From NCBI GenBank assembly GCA_017465565.1, contig JAFTWA010000055.1:59384-123383 (forward strand): DNA of 64,000 nt, written 5' to 3'. The notes under the pieces are model-generated. The model searched no databases, was not told the origin of the DNA, and saw nothing but the letters and a program-made list of their open reading frames with translations. A program made the translations under genes and the position numbers. Origin of the DNA: Tyzzerella sp. (GTDB lineage: Bacteria; Bacillota; Clostridia; Lachnospirales; Lachnospiraceae). The stretch's first letter is position 1. The number at the start of each line of letters is the position of its first letter. Positions 2,201 through 20,186 of this stretch are shown in pieces.

Positions 2201-3076
2201 ATGAAAAAAGTCGGAGTGATTACAGATAGTCATGGTGGAATTTCACTGGAAGAAGCTGCTAGGTTAGGAGTTAAGGTACTTCCGATGCCGTTTTATTTTG
2301 GCGATGAATGTTACTATGAGGGAGTTTCGATAACCAGAGAAGAATTCTTTGAAAGATTAAATGCAGGAGAAACTGTGTCAACTTCACAGCCATCGCCAGA
2401 AGAGGTTATGAATATCTGGCGTGAAGGTCTCAAGGAGTTTGAAGAAATATTATATATGACAATTAGCAGCGGTCTTAGTGGCGCTTGTAATACAGCGATG
2501 ATGCTTGCCCAGGACGATGAATTTGAGGGGAAAGTGTTTGTAGTGGATAACGGACGAATCGCTACACCAATGCACCGTTCTATACTAGATGCTTTGGAGT
2601 TAATCGAAGAAGGCTACGGCGCGGAAGAGATTAAAGGAATTCTCGAAGCCGCGAAGGACAAGATGTCGATTTATATTGCGGTGGAAACATTGGAATATCT
2701 GAAAAAGGGTGGTCGTATCACACCAGCCACAGCAGCAGTTGGTACACTCCTTAATATCAAACCGATTTTATCGCTGAACGTAGGAGTCCTTGACAACTAC
2801 GAAAAGTGTCGTGGGATGAAGAAGGCAAAGAGAGAAATGCTTGCAGCAATGAAGCGGGATCTTGAAACTACTTTCCGCGAGTATTACGAAAATGGTGAAG
2901 TTTATTTGATGGCAGCTACCAGTGCTGATGAGGCAACAACAAATGCATGGGTGGAAGAGATAAAAGAACATTTCTCAGGAATGGAGGTTCTTTGTGACCC
3001 GCTGTCACTTGGAATTTCATGTCATACTGGAGAAGGGGCGCTTGGCATAGGTTGTTCGTGCAAGCCAAAAAGATAA
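2201..3076 (+). CDS. DegV family fatty-acid-binding protein
   Basis: A 291-residue member of the DegV family, cytoplasmic proteins that bind a fatty acid between two domains (in Firmicutes the homologue FakB presents fatty acids to the kinase FakA). Visible landmarks are the start VGVITDSHGGI, the STSQPSPEEV motif (about residues 73-82), SSGLSGACNTA (the lipid-carboxylate-binding Ser region) and the C-terminal HTGEGALGIGC block. ATG 2201 is preferred over an in-frame ATG at 2168 because it follows AAAGAGGTAATAAT and begins at the family's usual first strand. The next gene's ATG overlaps the stop codon (TAATG at 3074-3078), implying translational coupling with the acyltransferase-like protein. 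Confidence 0.9.
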   Translation: MKKVGVITDSHGGISLEEAARLGVKVLPMPFYFGDECYYEGVSITREEFFERLNAGETVSTSQPSPEEVMNIWREGLKEFEEILYMTISSGLSGACNTAMMLAQDDEFEGKVFVVDNGRIATPMHRSILDALELIEEGYGAEEIKGILEAAKDKMSIYIAVETLEYLKKGGRITPATAAVGTLLNIKPILSLNVGVLDNYEKCRGMKKAKREMLAAMKRDLETTFREYYENGEVYLMAATSADEATTNAWVEEIKEHFSGMEVLCDPLSLGISCHTGEGALGIGCSCKPKR

Positions 3077-4305
3077 TGAAAAGAAGATACGCATTAGATA
3101 GTTCGGCGGCCATTTATCTGGCCTCTATGAATAAAAAACATACGAATGTCTATCGGTTTTCGGTGATGTTGAAAGAAAAGGTTAATCCAGAGAAACTGCA
3201 AGAGGCATTAGATAATGTGACTCCAAGATTCCCAGTGATTGTTGCGGGGATTAAGCGGGGAATGTTCGATTACTATGTTGACCCGGTAGAAAAAGCACCG
3301 CGAATCCAAAAGGATGAAGAACGTATGGCAGTGATGTCCAAAGAGCGTGTAGAGACTTGTGCAATGCGGGTTCTTTATCGGGAAAAGCAGATTTCGGTAG
3401 AAATTTTCCATTCCATAACGGATGGTGGCGGCGCCATGGTATTCCTGGGGTCTTTGTTGGCAGAATATTTGCGGTTATGTTATTCCATTCAGATTCCATA
3501 TTCTGACAGGATTTTAAATCCGAAAGAGGCTGTGAAGGAAAGTGAAGTCAAAGATGACTATATTACTTACGCGGGTGGAAAAGGGATTCCAGCGAAACGA
3601 CATAAAGCATATCAGCTTCCGAACGAAAAGAGTGGAAATGATAAAAATGAGGCTCTTACAAGGGTGTATAAGGCAGGAGACATTTTGAAGGTGTCAAGAG
3701 AATATGGCGTCAGCATGACCGTATTTTTAGCGGCAGTTATGGCGCAGTCTCTTATAGAGATAAAACGAAAATATCCGTCTTCTCGAAACATCATTCAGGT
3801 AATGCTTCCGATTAACCTGAGAAGCAAGTTTAAAAGTGATTCCTTACAAAATTTTTCTCTGTATGCGTTTATGAAGCTTTTGCCAGATAGTCAGGATATG
3901 AGTCTGGAAGAGATGATAAGAGTTTTCGCAGGTCAAATGGAAAAGCAATCATCTGCCAAGCATTTGCAGGGAATGATGACAACGAATGTGAAAAATCAGA
4001 ACTGGTGGTTCTTTAAGATTTTACCATTGCCGTTAAAGAAGCTTCTGGTAGAAGTGGTGCATTACATTTTTGGCGAGAGCAATTCTTGCATTACCATGAC
4101 AAATATGGGAAGAACGGTATTCCCGGAGGAGTGCAAACCATATGTGGAAGATGTGGAGTGTATCATAAGCCCTAGAAGGCTGACAGGATATAATTGCAGT
4201 ATTATTTCGTATGAGGAAAATGTGCGAATTACGCTTTCAAGATATGGAAAAGGCTGCGGGCTGGAAGATGTTTTTTATGAAAAATTAGAGTCCTTGATGG
4301 AATAG
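3076..4305 (+). CDS. Condensation-domain/alcohol-acetyltransferase-like acyltransferase
   Basis: A 409-residue protein with the HxxxDGG active-site signature of the CoA-dependent acyltransferase/condensation superfamily: HSITDGGG, with His112 as likely general base and Asp116 structural. The two-lobed organisation is also recognisable, with a second-half IQVMLPINLRSKF segment corresponding to the N/D-F-R-like motif near the tunnel. It resembles the alcohol acetyltransferase/WS-DGAT-like proteins of Clostridia. Its ATG overlaps the degV stop codon, so a role in transferring an acyl group related to the DegV-bound lipid is a reasonable inference, but no substrate can be named. An in-frame ATG at 3019 inside degV has no RBS and was not used. 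Confidence 0.7.
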   Translation: MKRRYALDSSAAIYLASMNKKHTNVYRFSVMLKEKVNPEKLQEALDNVTPRFPVIVAGIKRGMFDYYVDPVEKAPRIQKDEERMAVMSKERVETCAMRVLYREKQISVEIFHSITDGGGAMVFLGSLLAEYLRLCYSIQIPYSDRILNPKEAVKESEVKDDYITYAGGKGIPAKRHKAYQLPNEKSGNDKNEALTRVYKAGDILKVSREYGVSMTVFLAAVMAQSLIEIKRKYPSSRNIIQVMLPINLRSKFKSDSLQNFSLYAFMKLLPDSQDMSLEEMIRVFAGQMEKQSSAKHLQGMMTTNVKNQNWWFFKILPLPLKKLLVEVVHYIFGESNSCITMTNMGRTVFPEECKPYVEDVECIISPRRLTGYNCSIISYEENVRITLSRYGKGCGLEDVFYEKLESLME

Positions 4306-4361
4306 TTTTTTGCATATTATTTCCGTTTTTGAAAATACTAAAGGAAAACGGAAAGGAAAAT

Positions 4362-17396: not shown

Positions 17397-17916
17397 TTTT
17401 ATAGCATATGAATATAAGGAAATCGTTACAGATAGCGATAAAGCCTCGTTTTTACTGGATGGATATGAAAATTTTGGCTGGGAATTAGACCAGAATGTAA
17501 ATCATGAGAATGTGCTTGCAACGGGACACGGAAAGGTAGTAATTCGTCTGAAGCGCAATCGTAAGATTGTAAATAAAATGGAGCTTACTAGGTTACAGAG
17601 GAATTTTGAAGCACATTTGAAAGAAATAGAGGAGTTGGAAAGAAGTAAGACATCGGGAGCAGTGGTGACGGCACTCACGATTGGAATGATAGGAACTGTA
17701 TTTATGGCAGGGTCCGTATTTGCAATAGTTGCTCCACAACCGATTATATGGTTGTCCACTCTGCTTGCAATTCCAGCATTCATTGGTTGGATACTTCCAT
17801 ATTTTGTTTACAGAAAAAAAGTGGCGAAGCAGACGGAAAAGATGAATCTTTTAATTGAACAAAAATATGATGAAATATATGAAATCTTTGAAAAAGGAAA
17901 TAAACTATTGTATTAA
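17386..17916 (+). CDS. Hypothetical membrane protein of the two-component operon
   Basis: A 176-residue protein whose start overlaps the kinase end by 11 bp. A soluble N-terminal half (residues 1-85, charged, with AYEYKEIVTDSDKASFLLDGYENFGW) precedes two transmembrane helices (about 92-112 and 118-138) and a helical cytoplasmic tail. It may be an accessory factor for the kinase or a target. No recognised domain. It is the last gene before the large foldback. Confidence 0.7.
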   Translation: MENNFIAYEYKEIVTDSDKASFLLDGYENFGWELDQNVNHENVLATGHGKVVIRLKRNRKIVNKMELTRLQRNFEAHLKEIEELERSKTSGAVVTALTIGMIGTVFMAGSVFAIVAPQPIIWLSTLLAIPAFIGWILPYFVYRKKVAKQTEKMNLLIEQKYDEIYEIFEKGNKLLY

Positions 17917-17936
17917 GGAAACCTCCAAAAATTCAA

Positions 17937-18800
17937 TTTGGGGACACCACTAAACGCAATTGGGGACGTAGTCAAATTGAATTTCAATGTCATTAAGTTG
18001 TGGAAACGTTCTGGCTACAATGACTAAAAAACAATCAAATTAAAATTAGAGATATTAATCCAATGCACCGTTTTTGATATGGTGGATTTTTACTTGGATA
18101 AAAAAATTGAGATTTTCCATATACAATATTTTTGTGGCCCCATGGAAAAAAATCTCCTACTTTTCATGAAATTCCCTTGATTTTTTGCTCCTTTTTTCCT
18201 TATGCGAGAAAAGTGTTCCTGGATGCCAACAGATTTGCCCAAAGTATATACATAGAGCGACATTTTTACTCTATATGGAAAATGCAGAAGGAAATCTGTA
18301 AGGGATTAGCCTATATTTCTTTTCCATAGTAGTAAGGCTTCATCTTTCGTATTTTCTAACAGCCCACGAGCCAAGATGTTATTACAGTTTGCTTTGCACA
18401 ATTGCATTTATGTCTCGTGTGCTATAAGAAAATCTGTGAAAGATTGCAGATGTACTGCTACGCAAAAGAAATATAGGCTTATCCCTTACAGATTTCCTTC
18501 TGCATTTTCCATATAGAGTAAAAATGTCGCTCTATGCATATACTTTGGGCGAATCTGTTGGCATCCAGGAACACTTTTCTCGCATAAGGAAAAAAGGAGC
18601 AAAAAATCAAAGGAATTTCATGAAAAGTAGGAGATTTTTCTCCATGGAGCTACAAAAAAGTTGTATATGGAAAATCTCAATTTTTTTATCCAAGTAAAAA
18701 TCCACCACATCAAAAACGATGCAGTGGATTATATCTCTAATTATAATTTGATTGTTTTTTAGTCATTGTAGCCAGAACGTTTCCACAACTCCCCAATTTG
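17937..18800. repeat. Large intergenic foldback: two ~328-bp inverted arms around a 140-nt loop
   Basis: The 884-bp space between the convergent 17386 and 18801 genes holds no credible gene. It is filled by an inverted repeat: left arm 17996-18323 and right arm 18464-18790, which match over their whole length with about 13 substitutions and one 1-nt gap (around 96%). The loop has its own weaker complementarity (CCCACGAG near 18363 with CTCGTGTG near 18414, embedded in ATTTTCT/AGAAAAT). Outside the left arm lie TTGGGGAC units as at 7.9 kb, and outside the right arm lies their complement, CCCCAAATTG-like. A transcript from either side would fold into a roughly 330-bp near-continuous hairpin. 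Confidence 0.9.
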
Positions 18801-20186
18801 TTATTTTTTGAAATGTTCTTTTGTTAATTTAGCCACCGTTCCAGATAACAAGAACAGTGCAATCAAGTTTGGAATTGCCATAAGTCCGTTGCATGTATCA
18901 GAAATATTCCAAATCAACCCCAAATCTGCAGTTGCTCCTACGATAGCAATCAATGAGTACGCTAACATAAATGGTTTGAGAATCTTTGAGCCAAAGATAA
19001 ATTCCACACATCTTGCACCGTAAAGTCCCCATCCTAAAATAGTTGAAAATGCGAAACAGCAAAGTGCAACAGCTGTAAAAATAGACACCCAGCTTCCATA
19101 TGTAGCAGTGAAACCACTGATTGTAAGTTCCGCACCGGCATCCACACCGAATGCAATATCAATTCCACTACAAAGAATTGTCAAAGCTGTTAAAGTACAG
19201 ATAATGATTGTATCTGCAAACACTTCGAAAATACCGAAAAGCCCTTGTTTCACAGGAGAATCTGTATCTGCGCATGCGTGTGCGATGGAACCTGTACCGA
19301 GACCGGCTTCATTTGAAAAAATACCTCTGGATACACCCTTCTTCATGCTTAGGAAGAAACTACCAATTACACCACCTGTTATAGCGCTTGGATTAAAAGC
19401 ACCATAGAAGATAGAGTGGAATACCTCTGGAACAGCATCAATGTTAAGGATAATAACACCAACACCTAAAATGATATAGAGTACAGCCATAAATGGAACT
19501 AAGCGTTCTGTTACGGTACCGATACGTTTGATGCCGCCAAGAAGAACTGCAGCAACGACCAAGGCAATAATGATACCGATGATAAGATTTACAGTTTTTG
19601 TAGATGTAGCATCAATAAGGTTGAAATTTAACAATGCAGAATCAATAGCAGTTGTAATTGTGTTTACCTGTGTTGCATTTCCCGTTCCAAATACAGTTAT
19701 GGCACCGAGAATTGCATAAAGGTATGCTAAGAATCTCCAGTTTTTGCTAAGTCCATTTTTGATATAGTACATTGGGCCGCCTACATAATCACCGTTAGGG
19801 TTCTTCTCACGGAAATGTACAGCGAGTGTTACTTCTGCAAACTTTGTACACATACCAAGTAAAGCTGACATCCACATCCAGAATACAGCACCAGGGCCAC
19901 CGATCGCGATAGCACCGGCAACACCGGCAATATTACCAGTTCCTACTGTGGCTGCGAGGGCAGTACACACTGCCTGGAAAGGTGTAATAGCACCCTCAGA
20001 AGCCTTATCTTGTTTTTCAAAGATACGCCCGATTGTTGATTTGAGCGCATGCCCGAATTTTCGAATTTGAATAAATTTCGTACGAATACTAAGAACCAGA
20101 CCAACGCCAATGATACAGATCATAGCAGGAACGCCCCATACGAAAGCGTTTACTTCGGAGTTAATCTGTGAAATTATTTCTAACAT
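18801..20186 (-). CDS. Sodium:alanine/glycine symporter (AGCS family)
   Basis: A 461-residue inner-membrane amino-acid:cation symporter with about 11 helices. Family landmarks visible are FQAVCTALAATVGTGNIAGVAGAI near residues 65-88, the GPGAVFWMWMSALLGMCTKFAEVTLA block, YVGGPMYYIKNGL, and GIFSNEAGLGTGSIAHA, the AGCS signature around the substrate site. It imports alanine or glycine with Na+. The start is preceded by GAGAGGATATATT. It is a single gene, convergent to the two-component operon. Confidence 0.93.
   Translation of the reverse strand: MLEIISQINSEVNAFVWGVPAMICIIGVGLVLSIRTKFIQIRKFGHALKSTIGRIFEKQDKASEGAITPFQAVCTALAATVGTGNIAGVAGAIAIGGPGAVFWMWMSALLGMCTKFAEVTLAVHFREKNPNGDYVGGPMYYIKNGLSKNWRFLAYLYAILGAITVFGTGNATQVNTITTAIDSALLNFNLIDATSTKTVNLIIGIIIALVVAAVLLGGIKRIGTVTERLVPFMAVLYIILGVGVIILNIDAVPEVFHSIFYGAFNPSAITGGVIGSFFLSMKKGVSRGIFSNEAGLGTGSIAHACADTDSPVKQGLFGIFEVFADTIIICTLTALTILCSGIDIAFGVDAGAELTISGFTATYGSWVSIFTAVALCCFAFSTILGWGLYGARCVEFIFGSKILKPFMLAYSLIAIVGATADLGLIWNISDTCNGLMAIPNLIALFLLSGTVAKLTKEHFKK

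Follow-up and report, generated by a model that had tools for sequence, protein, structure and literature searches.

The MITEs of IS4-family ISs carry an 18-bp TIR, are flanked by a ~10-bp target duplication and have no internal transposase. The foldbacks most closely related to one in a 64,000-nucleotide stretch of Tyzzerella sp. DNA (the window) share these properties, the duplication being readable in three sister copies, but they differ from such MITEs in their arms of hundreds of bp, their conserved hub, their two inverted cores and their inward terminators. Eukaryotic elements of the Foldback/Galileo type, so far as the accessible parts of the sources describe them, likewise have inverted arms that are very long relative to the middle. 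Unlike these, the window family is bacterial and has IS4-type ends, and no internal tandem arms are seen in it.

A third comparison concerns a repeated unit within the foldbacks. REPIN/RAYT systems, as outlined in a published account (PMC8049555), pair a gene of their own with inverted repeats that are scattered over the genome; one genome can have several repeat classes, each near its own gene copy. Here, too, a repeat class adjoins its own gene copy, with box clusters at 14 of 39 genes and a box score of zero at six, but the units are ~165–170 bp long and contain three motif-bounded boxes, and the place of RAYT, a Y1 HUH transposase, is taken by a predicted PD-(D/E)XK-like nuclease. Its nuclease domain is matched by the C-terminal ~125 residues of PDC-S68, a PADLOC candidate defence protein (E values up to 7e-28; all three repeat-linked proteins tested match), although the PDC-S68 models are ~1200 aa long and the repeat-linked protein ~260 aa. 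The titles and abstract openings of open-licence PMC papers that were searched gave no published description of this system.

A palindrome between convergent genes

The genome that contains the window (G000) is 3.22 Mb long, in 62 contigs, with a completeness of 88.6%. Self-alignment of the window returns a single inverted repeat at 17996–18790 (~90% over the whole span). When 330 nt are taken from each end, the left and right arms align over 329 pairs with 14 mismatches and one gap, and the near-perfect long inverted repeat that an earlier, sequence-only reading had described with ~13 substitutions and one gap is real. The genes on its two sides are convergent: a 176-aa ORF that ends at 17916, whose product has its nearest named relatives in Lachnospiraceae, and a minus-strand 461-aa ORF with its stop at 18801. 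Folded as RNA, the palindrome reaches −574.6 kcal/mol, compared to a mean of −182 (s.d. 8) for 20 shuffled sequences (z = −49). No second inverted self-match of at least 60 nt (E 1e-8, span below 3 kb) is found within the 64-kb window, and the same search picks out 4 of 67 loci of other named genomes, the largest match being 215 bp. Synteny revealed no empty site among 69 loci, none of which shows the neighbouring symporter gene next to the 176-aa gene.

We read this feature as, probably, a MITE-like foldback that is non-autonomous and decayed, with an IS4-subgroup left end. The general layout of such foldbacks is terminal repeat, inward terminator, 170-bp core, hub, inverted core, terminator, terminal repeat; the parts of the window copy are listed here together with the repeat that adjoins them:

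17930..17984, plus strand: ~55-bp repeat that contains two GGGGAC motifs, distinct from the element and adjoining it
17985..18002, plus strand: left terminal repeat, identical to the IS4-type TIR CAATGTCATTAAGTTAAG at 16 of 18 positions
17996..18325, plus strand: left arm, from self-alignment and arm comparison
18057..18091, plus strand: left inward-facing terminator-like hairpin
18113..18282, minus strand: 170-bp core unit, left copy (110.2 bits; this copy went into building the model)
18283..18504, no strand: shortened hub (loop and inner arm)
18335..18365, plus strand: conserved hub motif, also found at five loci of genome G006
18461..18790, minus strand: right arm, without the outer 11 bp that would mirror 17985–17995
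18505..18674, plus strand: 170-bp core unit, right inverted copy (110.0 bits; this copy also went into the model)
18696..18730, minus strand: right inward-facing terminator-like hairpin

On the left, the element extends to 17985, beyond the arm as drawn in the sequence-only reading, and what had been taken for a loop there is a shortened version of a hub whose sequence other copies conserve. A kinship with the GGGGAC repeats, also suggested, is not supported: those motifs belong to the separate ~55-bp repeat at the left edge. At least 16 other copies of this repeat occur in the genome. Noted together with it, CCCCAATTTG directly abuts the right edge of the foldback.

Relatives of the element and their ends

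A DNA search of G000 with the window element gave 69 matches, and queries with two of its relatives added more. The retrieved loci contain 18 related foldbacks of 365–1060 bp, the window copy included, which were chosen by similarity and do not represent a genome-wide count. The window copy spans 795 bp, and the others are L009 (860 bp), L010 (439), L011 (464), L016 (1060), L019 (1019), L020 (685), L021 (365), L022 (578), L023 (381), L024 (367), L025 (656, the same element as L054), L026 (734), L048 (927), L049 (1058), L053 (431), L103 (1053) and L104 (403). Several contig ends fall inside such foldbacks, so further copies are probably missing. When nine further genomes from the genus are compared with the window element at the DNA level, G006 alone matches, at five sites and by a hub motif of 27 bp. 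Hub-bearing foldbacks are present in a second species of the genus. Phage and plasmid collections gave no DNA match to the window element, and the idea that it is phage or plasmid cargo was rejected on this ground.

Long-form foldbacks consist of an end, an inverted core, the hub, a core and an end, and short ones, for example L010 and L011, of a single core between inverted ends. The ends hold an inward-facing terminator-like hairpin. Cores are also present without a long palindrome (L017 and L044) and outside long foldbacks (L045, L046, L018 and two sites in L047). The 403-bp foldback L104, which has a GGGGCC-class unit, occupies positions 544–946 of its locus and starts immediately where the tmRNA gene has its 3′ end.

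The sequence CAATGTCATTAAGTTAAG is exact at both ends of L009, L010 and L011, and the flanks of these copies read as target duplications with 9/10, 9/10 and 7/10 agreement, respectively. A scan of viral contigs for the CAATGTCATTAAGTTAAG end pattern identified three contigs; a scan with a second pattern identified none. The viral contig L074 carries a 1605-bp IS (2734–4338) that has CAATGTCATTAAGTTAAG as an 18-bp repeat at both ends, a 9/10 target duplication and a DDE_Tnp_1 transposase (PF01609) encoded by two ORFs, the longer of which matches with E 2e-26. Another viral contig, L075, carries two copies of a 215-bp MITE with a 10/10 target duplication. A description of the IS4 subgroup gives an end consensus and target repeats of 10–13 bp (PMC2266710), and the CAATGTCATTAAGTTAAG end agrees with the seven fixed positions of that consensus. 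The terminal repeats and target duplications of the sister copies support the earlier suggestion of a hairpin-forming element that is apparently mobile.

Such elements could have been mobilised in trans in the past by an IS4-type transposase, and their built-in terminators would make insertion near 3′ ends tolerable. A search of G000 for a transposase with PF13751, the one model used, found none. In the window copy the IS4-subgroup TIR is present at the left end only (16/18) and no target duplication is readable, so its assignment to the family relies on the left end and on its similarity to the sister copies. With 11 bp of its right end gone, it can probably no longer move. Other families of core-containing foldbacks end in GGGGCTGTTGC-type repeats, which we take to be IS1182-like; for these, too, the PF13751 search gave no transposase.

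Arms, hub and rival explanations

Long palindromes are regarded as unstable, and a genome with many of them, up to 1.06 kb in length, is therefore unexpected. With these foldbacks, the survival of long palindromes and the correction of their arms can be studied in a natural setting. Concerted change of the two arms is strong in the E family (L048, L049 and L103) and weak or mixed in the others. In the E family, 64 columns are symmetric within every element yet differ between elements, and 61 of these fall in the first ~345 columns; 29 asymmetries are common to all three elements, all of them in the hub, and 47 further columns are mixed. Concordant versus one-arm columns number 21 versus 22, 51 versus 30 and 70 versus 22 in the E-family pairs, 4 versus 28 in L020/L026, 0 versus 4 in L010/L011, 3 versus 6 in the window copy and L010, and 5 versus 5 in the window copy and L009. 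Core units are closer arm to arm than to the best other element in five of seven elements. Gene conversion between the arms or a recent inverted duplication, as proposed in the sequence-only reading, is in line with the E family, but the other families give it a weak or mixed signal.

If one RNA strand were under selection, G-U mismatches should outnumber A-C mismatches. Over 12 elements the arm mismatches comprise 54 G-U, 55 A-C and 69 other pairs, and in the eight elements that can be oriented by their hub the ratio of G-U to A-C is 43 to 46, so that correction at the DNA level is favoured. DNA-level homogenisation fits the likeness of the arms better than selection on an arm RNA does; replication template switching or gene conversion, and not RNA function, would then keep the arms alike. 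The rival view, that the palindrome encodes a large structured or double-stranded RNA selected for pairing, draws on the very stable fold and on the hub apex, where 16 of 39 pairs show double changes and 91% of cells are paired in eight elements that represent six families and two species. None of 500 shuffles scored as high, and slid controls had at most five doubly changed pairs. Few hub changes are one-sided (12 cells versus 39 with double changes), which together with the absence of a G-U excess in the arms counts against this view. The core alone has no conserved fold beyond its terminal helix, and was rejected as a folded RNA for this reason. Furthermore, the palindrome has no excess of predicted promoters (one site versus 4.2 expected), its terminators face inward, and Rfam 15 at the gathering score returned nothing for the window region and 27 other loci, except the genuine tmRNA gene in L104. 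Taken over the whole element, selection for RNA pairing is unlikely, and the long double-stranded RNA suggested earlier finds no support in the arms.

The apex nonetheless suggests that the hub may have a role as an RNA or DNA hairpin; in the window copy this part is mostly lost. A 130-nt apex hairpin with compensatory double changes (L049:1225–1353 and relatives) is conserved in foldbacks of two species; it has no Rfam match. We infer that this hairpin matters, be it as DNA or as RNA.

Terminator-like sites are more frequent in the palindrome than expected (three versus 0.8), and two of them point inward, one at each end. These predicted hairpins are the part that stands of the two-sided transcription barrier proposed earlier, and they would suit an element domesticated, where convergent genes end, as a boundary or as a terminator acting on both sides. 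So would the CCACCAC-GTGGTGG-T-run ends of other families and the several sister copies inserted within existing terminator-like stems. However, a 1-kb palindrome is needless for termination and the copies have mobile-element ends and target duplications, which makes domestication as a boundary a still less probable account than a selected RNA. An assembly or amplification artefact might be suspected, as palindromes break this assembly and several contig ends lie inside elements. It is highly improbable in view of the 14 arm differences, the asymmetric loop, the sister elements at other loci and the hub foldbacks of a second species. The decayed MITE-like foldback probably accounts best for the locus.

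Core units and nuclease genes

The repeated module of the foldbacks, delimited by all-vs-all comparison and profile iteration, is a core of 169–171 nt. Thirty cores align over 171 columns with 65% mean identity and hardly any gaps. A coding core was rejected, since conservation lacks a 3-base periodicity and stops occur in nearly all frames; six of the 30 cores contain a mechanical ORF of at least 100 aa across the midpoint, in varying frames. Curved DNA was also dismissed as weak, with a mean z of 1.36 over the 30 cores under a wedge model. The core model, built from sequence only, has 82 matches in G000, 23 in G004, 7 in G002 and a single one in G006; six further genomes of the genus have no match, and the 69 named or syntenic loci have just two weak ones. 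A family-wide search, insensitive with seven candidates scored per genome, found the core in 5 of 397 genomes, including G000; two of the four matches in other genomes (L122 and L125) look unlike units.

The units of G004 and G002 have the three-box layout of the G000 core with a different motif. All 17 G004 units examined hold at least three GGGTAT/ATACCC motifs, compared to two or more in 6 of 1000 stretches of the window. These dispersed units carry the motif of the single nuclease gene copy of G004, which has units 102 and 217 bp away, one on each side. In G002, two units flank the gene for a 283-aa protein, whose relatives in the genus are ~260 aa long and have VRSKSE, PDFT and WEH motifs in common. 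No Pfam or NCBIfam model matches them convincingly, there is no PDB match, and viral contigs contain no homologue; the similarity to PDC-S68 suggests a PD-(D/E)XK-like nuclease. At E 1e-20, 125 of the 397 genomes of the family contain the gene.

G000 has further unit classes, GGGGCC and GGGTAT. A unit of the window's class lies 95 bp upstream of its intact nuclease gene C51, a GGGGCC-class unit lies 8 bp downstream of the broken copy C50, and a GGGTAT box adjoins the remnant C54. Altogether, the recorded unit–gene distances are 95, 8, 102 and 217, and 185 and 776 bp, and the chance that one of 33 units falls within 250 bp of a given gene is ~0.7%. The gene C23 has inverted TTGGACC repeats of its own on its flanks, a class with just two other partial matches in the genome. 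Relatives of the core unit beside nuclease genes keep the layout with another 5–8-bp motif, and the box motifs vary by gene copy.

A 7-mer flank test of 10 genus copies gave probabilities below 0.01 for four, 0.07 for G006_C58, 0.38 for C21, C19, G003_C3 and G002_C29, and 0.98 for G002_C15; the score of G004_C13 is due to another short tandem repeat, not to the motif. Across the 21 loci whose flanks are complete, the most frequent 7-mer, counted with its complement, occurs on average 6.7 times within 450 bp of the gene and 3.7 times farther away (Wilcoxon p = 8e-5). With clusters defined by an X-N(19–24)-X′ geometry and at least six X within ~530 bp, the 14 positive genes among 39 compare with 5 of 1000 controls (0.5%) and 1 of 21 distal flanks. 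Looser cut-offs give 18 of 39 at five (controls 3.3%) and 24 of 39 at four (controls 11.4%). The six genes with a score of zero are L118, L219, L220, L224, L225 and L245. One of them, L220, is C51, the copy paired with the window's class; its boxes are degenerate, and this link rests on profile homology and the 95-bp distance. In two further genera, a dispersed unit resembles the nuclease flank of the same genome (L124 and L241, 74% over 90 nt, E 9e-10; L123 and L237, 67% over 188 nt, E 8e-6).

The core unit may thus belong to a wider class of repeats that adjoin PD-(D/E)XK-like nuclease genes and have a class-specific motif in common with them. Our tentative proposal, for which the case is close to balanced but falls short of even, is an undescribed Lachnospiraceae gene-and-repeat system: the ~260-aa nuclease would recognise a class-specific X in X-N(about 21)-X′ boxes, the three-box 165–170-bp units would persist genome-wide like REPINs with an enzyme unrelated to RAYT, and in G000 one class would have spread further in the arms of foldback MITEs. 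Binding, cutting or spreading of units by the nuclease is putative. We think that the partnership would resemble REPIN/RAYT, yet it lacks the defining Y1 transposase, as Pfam Y1_Tnp matches none of 10 proteins. If the link is true, the REPIN/RAYT partnership would have a counterpart that evolved independently, the second system of its kind, and the function of such repeat populations would become testable with a different enzyme.

In G006, the foldback of locus L055 (from 2497 on) lies ~64 bp from sequence shared with G000 C51 after 19883; with these homologous flanks, a foldback in one genome and the C51 nuclease gene with its unit in the other use one intergenic place. At L222, L254, L255 and L259, boxes near the nuclease gene form tandem arrays with regular spacers.
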